Origin: Desulfopila sp. IMCC35008
GTDB taxonomy: Bacteria > Desulfobacterota > Desulfobulbia > Desulfobulbales > Desulfocapsaceae
Length of the DNA stretch: 64,000 bases
Assembly (NCBI RefSeq): GCF_010646885.2
Contig: NZ_CP050700.1
Span: 4,490,501-4,554,500 of the forward strand
Reading direction: 5' to 3'
Part shown: positions 45,595 through 54,258 of the stretch, piece by piece
How positions within the stretch are numbered: the first letter of the stretch is position 1
Layout of the letters: each line of letters begins with the position of its first letter
The notes under the pieces: generated by a model
The model's input: only the letters and a program-made list of their open reading frames with translations
Told to the model about the DNA's origin: nothing
Databases searched by the model: none
Position numbers and translations under genes: made by a program

Positions 45595-46287
45595 TCACCT
45601 GATAATTATTAAATCCATCTTTCTTGGCCCATGTGCACCAAAGACAAGCTGTGCTTCTATATCTGCAGTTTTTGATGGCCCTGAAATGAAAACCACATTA
45701 TCCCATCCCATCTCTTTCACTTTCTGATATCCCAACTCTAGAGTGCTGACGATGTTTTCTTCTCTTGTGATGGCTATATGTTGGGAAGGTAGCAGGGATG
45801 TGCTTCTGGGCTGCCCTATACCTGTCTGCTGTATAATGGTGCCGTGGGAAGCAACAACACATTCAGGCACTGTGATGCCTATACTACTGATTTCATGTTT
45901 CTCCCGACAGTCGTCATCACCCTCCATACAGATGTGCACGGAGACCGGATCATCCTCAAGGCGTTTCCAGAGCTTCAGGCCAGTAAGAAGTGGGTGTCTA
46001 TGAAGTATTACATGTTTGGAGGGGTGAAACTCAGGGTCAGCTTCATTTATTAGAGTTACCAGCAGATTTGCCGCCTGCTCTTCATCCTCAACCAAGTGCA
46101 AGGTTAAATTGTGCCTTTTGCAGCTTTCTTGAAGAATATCAAGAAGATTATCTGTTGATTCAGCTGCGGGTGAAACGGAAAAGGCTGACAGCATCAGATC
46201 TGGGAATTCCCCGGGATCACGTTCACTCGTTGTTGGCAATTGTAAACTTTGCCTTACTACGGCTAAAAAATCTTGCTGTGTTTTCAT
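45595..46287 (-). CDS. lutC: LutC/YkgG-type LUD-domain protein
   Basis: 230 residues. LUD fold with VVASHGTIIQQTGIGQPRSTSLLPSQHIAI and a terminal NVVFISGPSKTADIEAQLVFGAHGPRKMDLIII. Third gene of the lutABC operon, 15 bases after lutB. Known role: component of the iron-sulfur L-lactate oxidation complex, with an uncertain individual function. Confidence 0.88.
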   Translation of the reverse strand: MKTQQDFLAVVRQSLQLPTTSERDPGEFPDLMLSAFSVSPAAESTDNLLDILQESCKRHNLTLHLVEDEEQAANLLVTLINEADPEFHPSKHVILHRHPLLTGLKLWKRLEDDPVSVHICMEGDDDCREKHEISSIGITVPECVVASHGTIIQQTGIGQPRSTSLLPSQHIAITREENIVSTLELGYQKVKEMGWDNVVFISGPSKTADIEAQLVFGAHGPRKMDLIIIR

Positions 46288-46302
46288 GATCGTCTCTGTT
46301 CT

Positions 46303-47736
46303 CTAATTGCTTTTACGGGTTCGGCTCTGCCAACGTTCTTTGAAAGTTCTTTCAGCCATGGGCGGCAAATCCCTGTTCTTGGTCCACCCTGCAGCAGGAC
46401 CAAACATTCTTTCAATATAGCCGCCCTTCTTGCCAAAGGGTTTCAGTGCTACCCTCCCGATTTTCAAAAGAGTTCGATACACCCCAGGTTTTGTCGTCAC
46501 ATAGCCAAATATCGACCAACCGTACCCCTCCACCCTGCTCTGCTTTTTCACATTCCAATACTCACTGCCATTGGCCAGATTCTTTCTTAAAGCCAATAAC
46601 ATACGAGGGATATCATTATTCACAGGGCAGATGTCTTTACATGCACCACACAGGGTTTCACCTTTACACAAATCTGCATGTTTATTTACACCTTCCAGAA
46701 GTGGTGAAATAACCGCGCCTATTGGGCCTGGGTAATTGGCATTGTAGGAATGCCCGCCGATTCTGCCGTAAACAGGGCAAGCATTGAGACAGGCACCACA
46801 ACGAATGCAGCACAGGATTTCTTTAAAATCCTCATCACCTAGGATTTTTGAGCGACCATTATCAACTATCACCAGATGAAATTCCTGGGGACCATCTCCA
46901 TTATCAAGAGTTTCTGGTGCCCCTATAAAGCTAAGGTATGTCGAAATATCCTGAACAGCTGCACTCTTTGTGAGGAGCTGAACAGTATCACAATGATCTT
47001 TCAGGGTAGGCACTAACCTCTCCATCCCCATTACTGCTACATGCACCTTGGGGACAGTGGTCGCCATACGGATATTACCCTCGTTGGACACCAGGCTGAT
47101 CTGCCCTGTCTCGGCACAGGCCAGGTTGCATCCTGTTATCCCCATGTCAGCCGCCAGCATTTTCTTCCTGAGAACATTTCTGGCTTCAAGGGTTAGTGTT
47201 TCAGGGTCATCAGATCTTTCCATTTCAAGTTTTTCATGAAAAAGATCCGCTATCTGCTCCTTATTCATATGGATACAGGGGGCAATGATATGTGACGGCG
47301 TGTCTCCAGCTAACTGGACGATATATTCGCCGAGATCTGTCTCCAGCACCTCAATGCCCATTCCCTCAAGGGCCTGGTCAAGTCCTATCTCGTGGGTGGT
47401 CATGGATTTACCCTTCACCACATGCTTCACATCATGTTTGTTTGCCAATTCGCTGATATAGGATGTTGCATCCTCGGCGGTTTGAGCAAAGTAAACCTTT
47501 CCTCCATTGTCTTCTACCTTGCTGGCAAGTTGGGCTAGAAGAATATCAAGATGATCAAGGGTACGGAGCCGCCTTTCCTTAACCCGGTCTCGCCACTTCC
47601 TATTTTCCTCATTCTCCCAGAAGGCAAAGACATTCTTGCCAATCTTCTCCTGGATCATGTTGAGGTTTCTTTTCAGCCGTTTATCCTCAATGGCCTCTGC
47701 TGCCAATTCGCTATATGACTTCCTGGAGGTACTCAT
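46303..47736 (-). CDS. lutB: Iron-sulfur LutB-type lactate utilisation protein
   Basis: 477 residues. An N-terminal LUD domain (VKGKSMTTHEIGLDQALEGMGIEVLETDLGEYIVQ) is followed by two 4Fe-4S motifs (CIRCGACLNACPVY and CGACKDICPV) and a C-terminal extension. Electron-transfer subunit of L-lactate dehydrogenase LutABC. Its start overlaps the lutA stop by four bases. Confidence 0.92.
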   Translation of the reverse strand: MSTSRKSYSELAAEAIEDKRLKRNLNMIQEKIGKNVFAFWENEENRKWRDRVKERRLRTLDHLDILLAQLASKVEDNGGKVYFAQTAEDATSYISELANKHDVKHVVKGKSMTTHEIGLDQALEGMGIEVLETDLGEYIVQLAGDTPSHIIAPCIHMNKEQIADLFHEKLEMERSDDPETLTLEARNVLRKKMLAADMGITGCNLACAETGQISLVSNEGNIRMATTVPKVHVAVMGMERLVPTLKDHCDTVQLLTKSAAVQDISTYLSFIGAPETLDNGDGPQEFHLVIVDNGRSKILGDEDFKEILCCIRCGACLNACPVYGRIGGHSYNANYPGPIGAVISPLLEGVNKHADLCKGETLCGACKDICPVNNDIPRMLLALRKNLANGSEYWNVKKQSRVEGYGWSIFGYVTTKPGVYRTLLKIGRVALKPFGKKGGYIERMFGPAAGWTKNRDLPPMAERTFKERWQSRTRKSN

Positions 47737-48482
47737 AACGTCCCTCCCTCAGCAGCAAGGACCTGTGCCAGGTGAAGCACTTGTACTCTCTCACCTCTTC
47801 GATGTAGCCGCCCTTCTATATTCATGAGGCAACTCATATCTGTTCCAACCACATAATCAGCGCCTGTGGCCAGAATATTGTCTACTTTATCATCAACCAT
47901 AGCCCCACTGATTTCAGGATACTTAACACTGAAAGTACCACCAAAACCGCAACACTCATCACTCTCTCCCATCTCGATGAGTTCAACCCCTTTCACCATG
48001 GCAAGCAGTTCACGTGGTTGTGTTTTTACGCCCAATCCTCTGGTTAAATGGCAGGAGTCATGACAAGTTACCTTGCCCTCAAAATGGCTCTCAAGTGTCT
48101 CTACCTGGGCAACATCTCTTAAGTATTCTGAAAACTCAAAGGTTTTCGAGGCGATATCGTTAGCCTTTGCAAACTGTTCGGGTTCTGTCTTGAATAATTC
48201 AGGATAATGGTGACGTACCGTATGAACACACGATCCGGATGGACAAACGATAATCTCTGCTCTATCAAAAACATCAAAAAAATGAAGCGCTGCTTTTCTG
48301 GCAGCCTGGGTATAGCCATTATTATAAGCAGCTTGACCACAGCAGGTTTGACCTTCTGGATAATCAATTTCTTTATCAAGTTTTTCAAATACCTTTACCA
48401 TTGCCTCTGCAACATCTGGGTAGTGACTATCCACAAGGCACTGAATAAACAACGACACTTTTTTGTCTTTCTTCTCTTCCAT
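47733..48482 (-). CDS. lutA: LutA-type CCG-domain subunit
   Basis: 249 residues with two CCG cysteine-rich domains: QTCCGQAAYNNG in the first, then HDSCHLTRGLG and SDECCGFGGTFSVKYPEIS in the second. Heterodisulfide-reductase-like catalytic subunit of LutABC, which oxidises L-lactate to pyruvate. First gene of the operon, with the promoter in the region from 48483 upward. Confidence 0.92.
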   Translation of the reverse strand: MEEKKDKKVSLFIQCLVDSHYPDVAEAMVKVFEKLDKEIDYPEGQTCCGQAAYNNGYTQAARKAALHFFDVFDRAEIIVCPSGSCVHTVRHHYPELFKTEPEQFAKANDIASKTFEFSEYLRDVAQVETLESHFEGKVTCHDSCHLTRGLGVKTQPRELLAMVKGVELIEMGESDECCGFGGTFSVKYPEISGAMVDDKVDNILATGADYVVGTDMSCLMNIEGRLHRRGERVQVLHLAQVLAAEGGTL

Positions 48483-50037: not shown

Positions 50038-51204
50038 TTAACAGTGTTTTTTCCTCAGATTTCTAGAAGCTTCTACAATAGAGCATAATTTTTTATACGC
50101 TATTTCTTCAACATTTACTGATCGACTGGCAAAACAGCCAAAACCACAATCGGTATTTAGAAACAACTGTTCTGGTTTGTAATACTCCAATGCCTTCTCG
50201 GTTTTCCCAATAATGTAATCAACAGATTCCACATCATCTGTACGAGGATTGACAACTCCTAATCCCAACTCTCGATCAGAGAGAGAACCACCAACCACTT
50301 CAATATCTCCTGCTCTTGGTGTTGCATACTCAAGAACAAACTGGTCAATTTTCATGCGTTCAAGGGCAGGCAGTAATCTTGCGTAGTCACCAGTTAACAG
50401 GACCTCTTCCTGCTTACTCCAATTACCTCGGCAGATGTGGACACCGGTCCGTATCCCGTCTATTCCTTTCACGACTCTATTGATCAGATCCGCTGCAAAC
50501 TTCAATTCTTTACCCGCGTCCCGGCGGGTTGCAAGGGTCGCTCACATAAACGTTCGCCGTTCGCAATCCTCTGACATGATGATTTCTGTAAGGACGGGTT
50601 CATCGAACTGGACGAAATCGCATCCATTGTCGCGTAGTTCGATGAGTTCCTCCCTGAGGATTTTGACGATATCATTCGCCATCCTCTTATGATTCCAGTA
50701 CGCTTTGCGGGTAAGCGCCGTAACCCACATGGAACGGGTAAGCAGGTATGGTCCAGGAAGGGTGATCTTTACAGGTTTATCCGTTAACTGTTTCAGAAAT
50801 TTCAGGTCATCAAGAGCCAGTGGCTCTCTTCGGGATAATTTACCGATACAGGTCGGATTTTTTACAGCAGATGCCGGCATGTCCATGGTACGCAGCATCT
50901 CTTCAAACTCCGCCTTATCCTCGACAAAATCGAGCATATCAGCAAGGGACATGAGACGTGTACCGGCCACTTTATCGGTTATGAAAGCGTAAAAGCTCTC
51001 CCTGCGATGTTCGCCGTCCACCAGGATATCCAGCCCGGCTTTTTCCTGCAGTTCAACGGTTCTGCGTATTTCATCCTCCGCCACAGCCAGGTAGTCACTC
51101 TTTGTGACCTTACCTTTCTGGAAGCCGCGTAATGCTTTGAGCATCTTCGTCGAACGGGGCCATGAGCCCACCTGTGTTGTCAAAAAAGACTGATTACCAC
51201 TCAT
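50038..51204 (-). CDS. Putative selenoprotein: MetE-II/UROD-superfamily methyl- or alkyl-thiol transferase with in-frame TGA (Sec221)
   Basis: One frame of 389 codons is interrupted only by TGA at 50542-50544. Both halves are well conserved members of the cobalamin-independent methionine synthase II family: LTTQVGSWPR and DILVDGEHRRESF, then FVQFDEPVLTE, RTFM-TGA-ATLATR, LINRVVKG, GVHICRGNW and NTDCGFGCFA. Candidate zinc ligands His256, Cys258, Glu292 and Cys353 are present. In the homologues I remember, the TGA position is Cys (RTFMC). A hairpin fitting the bacterial SECIS rules follows (50512-50529). With Sec the protein is 388 residues, the family length. Relatives include methionine synthase core proteins and epoxyalkane:CoM transferase, so the acceptor is probably a thiol or a sulfur-loaded carrier. 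It lies four bases after the TusA-OsmC gene. Confidence 0.78.
50512..50529 (-). promoter_or_regulatory. Bacterial SECIS-like hairpin
   Basis: On minus, ACCCGC and GCGGGT form six perfect pairs around the loop CGGGAC. The loop G's are 20-22 bases after the TGA, inside the 16-37 window known for bacterial SECIS elements, and lie early in the apical loop as SelB recognition requires. The hairpin is within the coding sequence. Confidence 0.7.
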
Positions 51205-51208
51205 TACC

Positions 51209-51946
51209 CTACACCAATGCCAGTTTAATTTTGAGATCTACAGCTTTTGCGAGAGTCACGGCGACCGGTGAACGACTCACGGTCCGCTCCCATACCTCCC
51301 GCACCTTATCCTCATCATCAAAGGTTGACGCAAAGCATTTCAACTCAATCTCCGATATGGACGGATCGCCCTCTTCCAGCCCCATATGTGCGAGGATATT
51401 ATGTAATGCGCCACTCAAAGAGATCTCGATATCATCAACATCCAGGTTCTCTTTTGCGCATTCGGTCGCAAATGCGGTGGTCAGTGAACCAGCGAGGGAA
51501 CCGAACAGATATTCAACAGCGCATGGGTTCTTGTCCTTTTCTTCAAAGCTTGCCGGCTGGCCCACCTCAAAAGAGAAGTTACGGCTGTAGACTGTTGATC
51601 TCAGATGGCCCTGGGAGCGGGCACGCAACCGCCACTCATACTTTTTCGCCTTATCGAGATCTTCCTTGAGCGACTGTTCTTCCTTTTTCTCCTGAGTACC
51701 TCGCTTGACAAAATAGCGGGTAAAGCCTTCTCCCGCTTCTTGACCAAGATACTCGTGCCCTGACATTCTGCACCATGGAGGCAGGTCGTCGGCCACCGTC
51801 GGTTCCCTGCTTCGCATTTCAAGAATACCATCCACCGGTGTCTTAAGCATATGCTCACGAATAAGGAGGATCAACCCTGAACCGCAATCCAGGTCCCCGC
51901 CATCGAACACCATATCAGGGATAACTTCATTCAGATTTACCGTCAT
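51209..51946 (-). CDS. TusA-like domain fused to OsmC-like domain
   Basis: 245 residues from an ATG with AGGAGGA upstream. Residues about 10-75 are TusA-like but with FDGGDLDCGSG in place of the usual CP motif, and end in LPPWCRMSGHEYLG. Residues about 105-245 are an OsmC-like fold (VGQPASFEEKDKNPCAVEYLFGSLAGSLTTAF; SPVAVTLAKAVDLKIKL). The two peroxidatic Cys positions of OsmC/Ohr appear as Ser (LAGS and SRSPV), so peroxidase activity is unlikely. A sulfur- or selenium-carrier role with the neighbouring TusA- and DsrE-like proteins is inferred. Confidence 0.82.
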   Translation of the reverse strand: MTVNLNEVIPDMVFDGGDLDCGSGLILLIREHMLKTPVDGILEMRSREPTVADDLPPWCRMSGHEYLGQEAGEGFTRYFVKRGTQEKKEEQSLKEDLDKAKKYEWRLRARSQGHLRSTVYSRNFSFEVGQPASFEEKDKNPCAVEYLFGSLAGSLTTAFATECAKENLDVDDIEISLSGALHNILAHMGLEEGDPSISEIELKCFASTFDDEDKVREVWERTVSRSPVAVTLAKAVDLKIKLALV

Positions 51947-51972: not shown

Positions 51973-52338
51973 TTAGTATGCTACACTCGGTGAGCCTGCG
52001 GACAACCACTCAACCAGAGCCGCGCCACCTGCAGGGGTTGCGCCTTCCATAAGTTGATCTTCGGTGATTCCACGCTTTTTCATGCATGGAGTACAAACGT
52101 AAATCTTACCACCAGCTTTGAGGTACTTTGCAACCAGGTCTTTGAGCGGTGCAAAAGGAGCACCCTCATCCACTTTCTCCATTTCTTCAGGCACAGCACA
52201 CCAGACACCATCTGAGCTGAGAAAAACCATCGTCTCTTTCTCACTGCCCTGGGCAGCGTTGGCAACGACAAATCCAAGGGTAGCCTTGTCATGATCAGTT
52301 TTACAGTGCGTAATGGTCACACAAAATGTATCGGACAT
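51973..52338 (-). CDS. DsrE-like sulfur-relay protein
   Basis: 121 residues from an ATG with AAGGAG upstream. DsrE/F fold with FVVANAAQGSEKETMVFLSSDGVW and the Cys pair in YVCTPCMKKRGI, a site where related proteins carry persulfide. Two bases separate it from the TusA-like gene and 26 from the TusA-OsmC start, so it is the middle of the operon. Confidence 0.87.
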   Translation of the reverse strand: MSDTFCVTITHCKTDHDKATLGFVVANAAQGSEKETMVFLSSDGVWCAVPEEMEKVDEGAPFAPLKDLVAKYLKAGGKIYVCTPCMKKRGITEDQLMEGATPAGGAALVEWLSAGSPSVAY

Positions 52339-52340
52339 CT

Positions 52341-52676
52341 TTATCTCCTTACTAAATGAGGTTTAAGGGTGATCAGGTAATAGGGGTGTTTTGTTTCTGT
52401 CAGATCGTTCTTTGTCATCCGGCACCATGCAGGGAGTTCAACCGGCGCGCCGGGATCACGCGAAATCACAAGAATCCGAAGACCCGGCTCCTGGTCCCTG
52501 ATATAGAGGTGAAGGTTGACAATAACTCTGCCGCAGGTTTCATCACCACCATCAAATTCATCATCAAAATCCCAGTCTGGAAGTTCAATATCAGCCTTCG
52601 ATGTTTCCAGATCGTTTGGTTCTTCTAATGCTGTCGGGCAGGTGAATGGTTTCTCATCCTTGCTTGTCAAACTCAT
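52341..52676 (-). CDS. TusA-like small carrier protein
   Basis: 111 residues from the ATG at 52676; ATG 52685 or GTG 52703 in frame are possible and no clear ribosome site decides. Core FDGGDETCGRVIVNLHLYIRD with a single Cys-Gly, then GLRILVISRDPGAPVELPAWCRMTKNDL. It is the same layout as the N-terminal domain of the TusA-OsmC fusion two genes on, so they are duplicated versions of one carrier. An acidic linker (about 20-45) precedes it. First gene of the operon. Confidence 0.78.
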   Translation of the reverse strand: MSLTSKDEKPFTCPTALEEPNDLETSKADIELPDWDFDDEFDGGDETCGRVIVNLHLYIRDQEPGLRILVISRDPGAPVELPAWCRMTKNDLTETKHPYYLITLKPHLVRR

Positions 52677-52703
52677 CAATCGCATCCAGGAGAAGGGTTG
52701 CAC

Positions 52704-53859: not shown

Positions 53860-54258
53860 TTGAAAACCCAAGGAAGCAGGAGAACGATTGCTCTTCGGCC
53901 ATCACTCAAAGCAATTCTTGAACAGCAAAAGGATGTAACCAAGGGTCTGAAAAGCCCTTATGTGTTCATGAACAGTTTCGGTCGGCCAATCCAGCAGGAC
54001 AAACTCCGTGAACTCTGGGAAAGAGCTTTGAACAGAGCAGAGCTTCCATACAGGCGAATGTATGAAACCAGTCATACTTTTGCTTCATGGGCATTGACTC
54101 TGAGAGAAGCACCGGAATGGGTTGCACGTGTTCTCAGTCATATTGATACGTCCATGGTTTACAAAACCTATGGTCGCTATATACCGAACCTGACCAAATT
54201 GGATGGCTCCGCATTTGAGAAACAGTTTGCGGATAGTCCAAACAAAAATAGAATCTAA
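53860..54258 (+). pseudogene. Tyrosine recombinase (integrase), C-terminal remnant
   Basis: 132 codons cover the catalytic domain end: RRTIALRPSLKAIL, YVFMNSFGRPIQ, ETSHTFASWALTLREAPEWVARVLSHID and YKTYGRYIP with the candidate Tyr nucleophile. The box-II Arg before HTFAS is Ser here (normally RHTFAS) and the N-terminal half is absent, with a stop codon just upstream. It is inactive. It lies on the far side of the sulfur operon from the tRNA-Pro remnant, as expected for a decayed integrative element. Confidence 0.8.

Follow-up and report, generated by a model that had tools for sequence, protein, structure and literature searches.

We identified, in a 64,000-nucleotide stretch of the Desulfopila sp. 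IMCC35008 genome (hereafter the window), a gene that very probably defines a new selenoprotein family. Its product, which we call Sec-MetE, is predicted to be a zinc-binding, single-barrel relative of MetE in which a selenocysteine at residue 221 (Sec221) is directed by a downstream hairpin, and it is encoded in a conserved operon. The coding sequence lies on the minus strand at 50038-51204, with an ATG at 51204 and a stop at 50038-50040, and specifies 388 amino acids if a TGA at codon 221 (50542-50544, minus strand) is read as selenocysteine. This TGA, located inside the motif RTFM-x-ATLATR, is the single interruption in the 388-residue frame. The initial annotation had described two frame-sharing halves joined by one TGA, and the gene, strand and codon that we found all match that description. 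Because ordinary ORF calling cuts the gene into pieces of 220 and 155 amino acids, it is easily misannotated. From the comparative sequence evidence presented below, we consider it almost certain that this TGA encodes selenocysteine and that the gene product is a selenoprotein.

We scanned one genome per species plus relatives, which yielded about 30 close homologues. Every homologue of 58-94% identity that was intact at codon 221 had a TGA at exactly this position, and a search of the class placed the gene in 24 of 258 genomes, with the TGA present in all near-full copies (20/20). The TGA carriers were members of the Desulfobulbales plus one Eisenbacteria genome (L027, 63% identity) and one Myxococcota genome (L030, 58% identity), and the Sec copies formed one clade (support 87/99). 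Homologues of 39-53% identity, from Poribacteria, Dehalococcoidia, Bacillaceae, other Desulfobacterota and Paracoccus, had a Cys codon (TGC or TGT) in the same column. The earlier statement that homologues have Cys at the TGA thus holds for these distant proteins (L031-L033, L113-L117, L146) but not for homologues of at least 58% identity, which have TGA. Across 32 aligned homologues the column contained Sec or Cys only; a variable, non-Cys column was not seen. As one Sec gene is carried by a cultured strain, Desulfobulbus alkaliphilus DSM 24258 (L026), the TGA is not merely a matter of metagenome assembly.

These comparisons bear directly on whether the TGA could be a real stop, in which case the locus would encode two separate proteins or be a decaying gene. 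These genomes do use TGA as an ordinary stop in other places, for example at the ends of methyltransferase genes, and one copy from a metagenome-assembled genome (MAG; G019) is disrupted by a TAG and by frameshifts. However, purifying selection was equal on both sides of the TGA (median pN/pS of 0.169 before and 0.186 after, 276 pairs), the same TGA occurs across three phyla with Cys at the same column in other homologues, and the hairpin described below exists only where the TGA does, so that we regard a real stop as highly improbable.

The gene is patchy in its distribution, and it is accessory, since two genus mates lack it. No Sec-MetE relatives were found in the viral contigs searched. 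The broken copy in G019, a Desulfobulbaceae MAG (L053, L035, L061), has its TAG at codon 29 and its frameshifts around residues 115-197, and is either a pseudogene or an assembly error.

The proposed bacterial selenocysteine insertion element (bSECIS) is an 18-base hairpin, ACCCGC-CGGGAC-GCGGGT, at 50512-50529 on the minus strand, with its loop at 50518-50523. Its stem begins 12 bases after the TGA and the loop G's fall 20-22 bases after it, so the six-pair hairpin with loop CGGGAC proposed in the initial annotation was recovered in both position and sequence. The published constraints for such elements are a loop of 3-9, a stem of 4-16, a G in the first two loop positions, a spacing of 16-37 and a minimum free energy of -7.5 or below (PMC13188914), and the hairpin passes all of them (loop of 6, stem of 5-6 pairs, G in second position, TGA-to-loop distance of 18, and -10.8 to -12.5 kcal/mol). 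Judged by stability alone, the hairpin does not stand out from shuffled versions of this sequence (z = -0.28; folding was equally good in 63 of 200 shuffles), and the case for it therefore rests on comparison.

When the distinct Sec genes were compared, the five core pairs were kept in 27 of 27, and it is the conservation of these pairs together with that of the TGA codon that marks the hairpin as non-random. Two changes within the core, C-G to U-G and G-C to G-U, preserve pairing as wobbles, the second of these coinciding with the replacement of Ala by Val in the protein; outside the core, 9 of the 27 genes have lost the outer A-U pair. No two-sided covariation was found among these genes, because the encoded peptide hardly varies. 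At the level of codon choice, codons 227 (CGC in 24/24) and 230 (GCG in 24/24) showed less variation than any other codon for an invariant Arg or Ala in the gene, and codons 222 and 225, near the hairpin, vary freely. The Cys homologues have neither the hairpin nor the TRRDAG peptide that it encodes.

The initial annotation had asked for the selenocysteine machinery, and selA, selB, selC and selD are all present in the Desulfopila genome (selC at 74.6 bits, cut-off 47), where selD itself contains an in-frame TGA. Together with the invariant Sec/Cys column, this supports the original proposal of a candidate new selenoprotein. Every further carrier tested, whether of the Sec or the Cys type, had a tRNA-Sec scoring above the cut-off, and these carriers included Eisenbacteria and Myxococcota. 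As selA occurs in nearly all genomes of the phylum (355 of 395, 90%), we set aside its co-occurrence there as uninformative, and co-occurrence of the machinery is informative mainly outside the phylum. TGA read-through is a feature of some genetic codes, and the codon could in principle be suppressed by another tRNA and carry Trp or Arg. We give this reading a vanishingly small probability, as relatives have Cys and never Trp or Arg at this position, the hairpin and the Sec machinery are present, and the gene contains no TGA codons elsewhere.

Sec-MetE contains a Meth_synt_2 domain (PF01717; 8.5e-36, 124 bits, cut-off 21). None of the NCBIfam methionine synthase models reaches its cut-off, the best scoring 189.9 bits against a cut-off of 406, and the N-terminal barrel of two-barrel MetE is absent from this 388-residue, one-barrel protein. 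An AlphaFold2 model of the protein (pLDDT 88.3, pTM 0.90) gave matches to the MetE barrel fold with Z values of 35-38, the best structural match being the core methionine synthase 3rpd (Z 38.3, 2.4 A over 325 residues), and the match to the C-terminal barrel of Thermotoga maritima MetE (1xdj) scoring Z 36.5. The domain, the fold and the residues described next agree with the earlier classification of the protein as MetE-type and place it as a single-barrel relative.

To assign the zinc ligands, we aligned the protein to the MetE structure 1xpg. On the minus strand, these residues are His256 (50437-50439), the equivalent of T. maritima MetE His618; Cys258 (50431-50433), within an invariant HxCRGN motif; and Glu292 (50329-50331) and Cys353 (50146-50148), which align with the zinc Glu and zinc Cys of the same enzyme. 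All four, which are the ligands that the initial annotation had named, are invariant in the 32-sequence alignment and match those of T. maritima MetE, which, His618 included, are named in PMC539065. Residues S14, E65 and D201, the equivalents of the homocysteine-binding Ser, Glu and Asp of MetE, are also invariant in the 32 sequences (residue assignments from PMC539065 and PMC7857596). Sec221 itself falls in the stretch that joins two strands, one at 197-201 terminating in the QxDEP motif and the other terminating in H256; MetE has the corresponding connection on its active-site face, as the loop that follows strand 4 (PMC539065). The model has a pLDDT of approximately 62 in the Sec221 loop, and this low confidence fits a mobile loop.

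Sec-MetE therefore shares with the C-terminal barrel of MetE (PF01717) its fold, its His/Cys/Glu/Cys zinc ligands, its homocysteine-binding Ser/Glu/Asp residues and its QxDEP motif, but unlike MetE it has one barrel without an N-terminal domain, carries Sec or Cys in a longer loop after strand 4, and scores below every NCBIfam methionine synthase cut-off. The core methionine synthases MesA-MesD (PMC7857596; MesD is 3rpd) have the same single barrel and zinc site. In contrast to these enzymes, Sec-MetE has the Sec/Cys at residue 221, and its partners are TusA, DsrE and OsmC proteins, whereas the partner of MesD is MesX and corrinoid donors have been proposed for MesA-MesC.

Sec-MetE is the last gene of a four-gene operon on the minus strand. 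The first gene (52341-52703, start uncertain) encodes a TusA-like protein (PF01206, 1.1e-5, below the gathering score), the second (51973-52338) a DsrE-family protein (PF02635, 6.1e-16, 59 bits, cut-off 22.7), and the third (51209-51946) a TusA-OsmC fusion (PF02566, 1.9e-10; PF01206, 2.1e-5, below the gathering score). A conserved Cys is present in both the DsrE and the TusA proteins. Wherever a Sec locus has sufficient upstream DNA, Eisenbacteria and Myxococcota included, the genes follow the order TusA, DsrE, TusA-OsmC, Sec-MetE, and this order recurs at the Cys loci of Bacillaceae and, with a gap, at those of Poribacteria; in the Cys members L032 and L113-L115, the OsmC gene is the sole operon partner alongside. 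Within the Sec clade, we found no conserved neighbours beyond the four operon genes. The conservation of this TusA/DsrE/OsmC operon, which the initial annotation did not mention, points to the handling of sulfur, or of selenium. A phage-integrase-like fragment lies at 53860-54258 of the window, approximately 1.2 kb from the operon on its upstream side, and could be a trace of earlier mobility.

The association with TusA extends to gene fusions. In two Desulfobacterota (L116:7614-9149 and L117:7989-9590) and in Paracoccus (L146:8641-10122, and L147 by similarity), a single open frame encodes a Cys-type MetE barrel with a TusA domain joined to it N-terminally. The fused TusA domains of L116 and L117 score above the Pfam cut-off, whereas those of the window fall slightly below it. 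On the Paracoccus plasmids (L146:4357-12571, and L147), genes for a cysteine desulfurase, tusA, dsrE, two unknown genes, tusA-metE, selA and trxB are adjacent. Other genes found near Cys members encode a rhodanese (L032), a LysR regulator (L033) and a redoxin (L116).

Gene order, the fusions and the kept zinc and thiol site led us to consider, tentatively, a sulfur-carrier relay as a possible mechanism: the homologues have nothing but Sec or Cys at residue 221, the site that binds zinc and thiol is preserved, and the fused forms carry TusA and the barrel in one protein. In such a relay, DsrE and TusA would carry sulfane sulfur, passing it from DsrE to TusA, and TusA would load sulfur, or possibly selenium, onto Sec221, which would sit above the active site on a mobile loop that follows the fourth barrel strand. 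The loaded Sec221 would then react with a thiol resembling homocysteine, bound to the zinc as a thiolate, in an exchange of sulfur (or selenium) or of an alkyl group, and the outcome could be a persulfide, a new thiol or methyl transfer. In general chemical terms, selenium at residue 221 would be a faster acceptor and leaving group than sulfur; Cys would perform the same role in the relatives, presumably more slowly. A more specific proposal, which we regard as slightly less likely, is that Sec-MetE could be a new chalcogen-transfer enzyme, in which a MetE barrel takes sulfane sulfur or selenium from TusA onto Sec and joins it to a zinc-bound thiol. If this is true, a scaffold for methyl transfer has become one that transfers sulfur or selenium. 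Adjacent DsrE and TusA genes are also found in known relays such as that of Metallosphaera cuprina, where cysteine-borne thiosulfonate transfer between DsrE3A and TusA has been shown (PMC4175335). Whereas the carriers of that system are linked to a heterodisulfide-reductase-like complex, those of the Sec-MetE operon are linked to an OsmC domain and a MetE-type enzyme.

As all zinc ligands and homocysteine-binding residues are kept, the protein could instead be a plain core methionine synthase, in which zinc-bound homocysteine is methylated, for example from a corrinoid protein, Sec assists or protects, and the TusA operon is a side link. Consistent with this, the Desulfopila genome contains no other MetE relative and only weak, partial matches to MetH, and, among 97 relatives, a near-full MetH (16 genomes) and the Sec-MetE gene (11 genomes) never occur together. 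This complementarity is suggestive but not significant (hypergeometric value of approximately 0.12, an estimate), and G368 has both. Furthermore, most relatives have neither gene, and another route to methionine therefore exists; the gene is patchy (24/258 in the class, absent from two genus mates); and TusA fusions are unexpected for a methyl transferase. We consider this explanation rather unlikely. In many Desulfobacterota relatives, neither a full MetH nor a MetE relative was found.

The operon could also handle selenium itself, with TusA, DsrE and OsmC carrying selenide and the MetE barrel methylating, demethylating or transferring it so as to feed or spare selenophosphate synthesis. The occurrence of tRNA-Sec in all carriers tested, even those with a Cys-type MetE, is in line with this, as is the arrangement in Paracoccus ferrooxidans and P. 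versutus, where selA (564.8 bits, cut-off 267.9) and trxB come after the operon, which lies opposite a SufS-type cysteine desulfurase. However, P. pantotrophus has a selA gene that is not flanked by the operon, the near universality of selA in the phylum (355/395) means that co-occurrence there says little, and the rhodanese by L032 and the redoxin gene by L116 equally fit sulfane sulfur. We therefore judge a selenium-handling role to be unlikely, and continue to favor, with the reservation expressed above, the sulfur-carrier relay.

The features that identify Sec-MetE as a selenoprotein, namely the UGA, the bSECIS, the Cys homologues and the sel genes, are those of the known bacterial selenoproteins, of which 119 families have been listed (PMC13188914). 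Most of these have a thioredoxin-like fold and redox roles (PMC13188914), whereas Sec-MetE does not have a thioredoxin-like fold. The MetE barrel (PF01717) family is absent from this 2026 inventory of 119 prokaryotic selenoprotein families (PMC13188914), and term searches of a 2022 review (PMC9312934) and of the deep-Sep study with its nine new families (PMC12013277) found no MetE selenoprotein. In the open-access literature searched we found neither a MetE selenoprotein nor a TusA-DsrE-OsmC-MetE cluster, and an earlier mention elsewhere is possible. Sec-MetE is very probably a new selenoprotein family on a fold without a listing in the PMC13188914 inventory, and its operon is undescribed in the open-access literature searched. 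The set of selenoproteins would thereby gain a family with the zinc methionine-synthase fold that is tied to a TusA/DsrE/OsmC carrier operon, and the cultured carrier D. alkaliphilus DSM 24258 allows a direct test.

Other TGA codons in related genes were set aside. In a distant MetE paralogue (L118:4950-6200; G288:C197, minus strand, 29% identity), a TGA stands at the codon of the zinc Cys (HLURGN) and is followed by a stable hairpin. This TGA is probably a mutation or an error, because in G288 no tRNA-Sec scored above the cut-off and the selA search gave no match at its threshold. The TGAs within matches to the MetH N-terminal and S-methyl_trans domains were terminal stops wherever the frame was resolved. 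Elsewhere in the window, a lactate-utilisation-like set of genes (45595-48482), encoding a CCG protein, a protein with LUD and 4Fe-4S domains and a LUD protein, sits downstream of a large membrane protein that resembles a TRAP transporter subunit.
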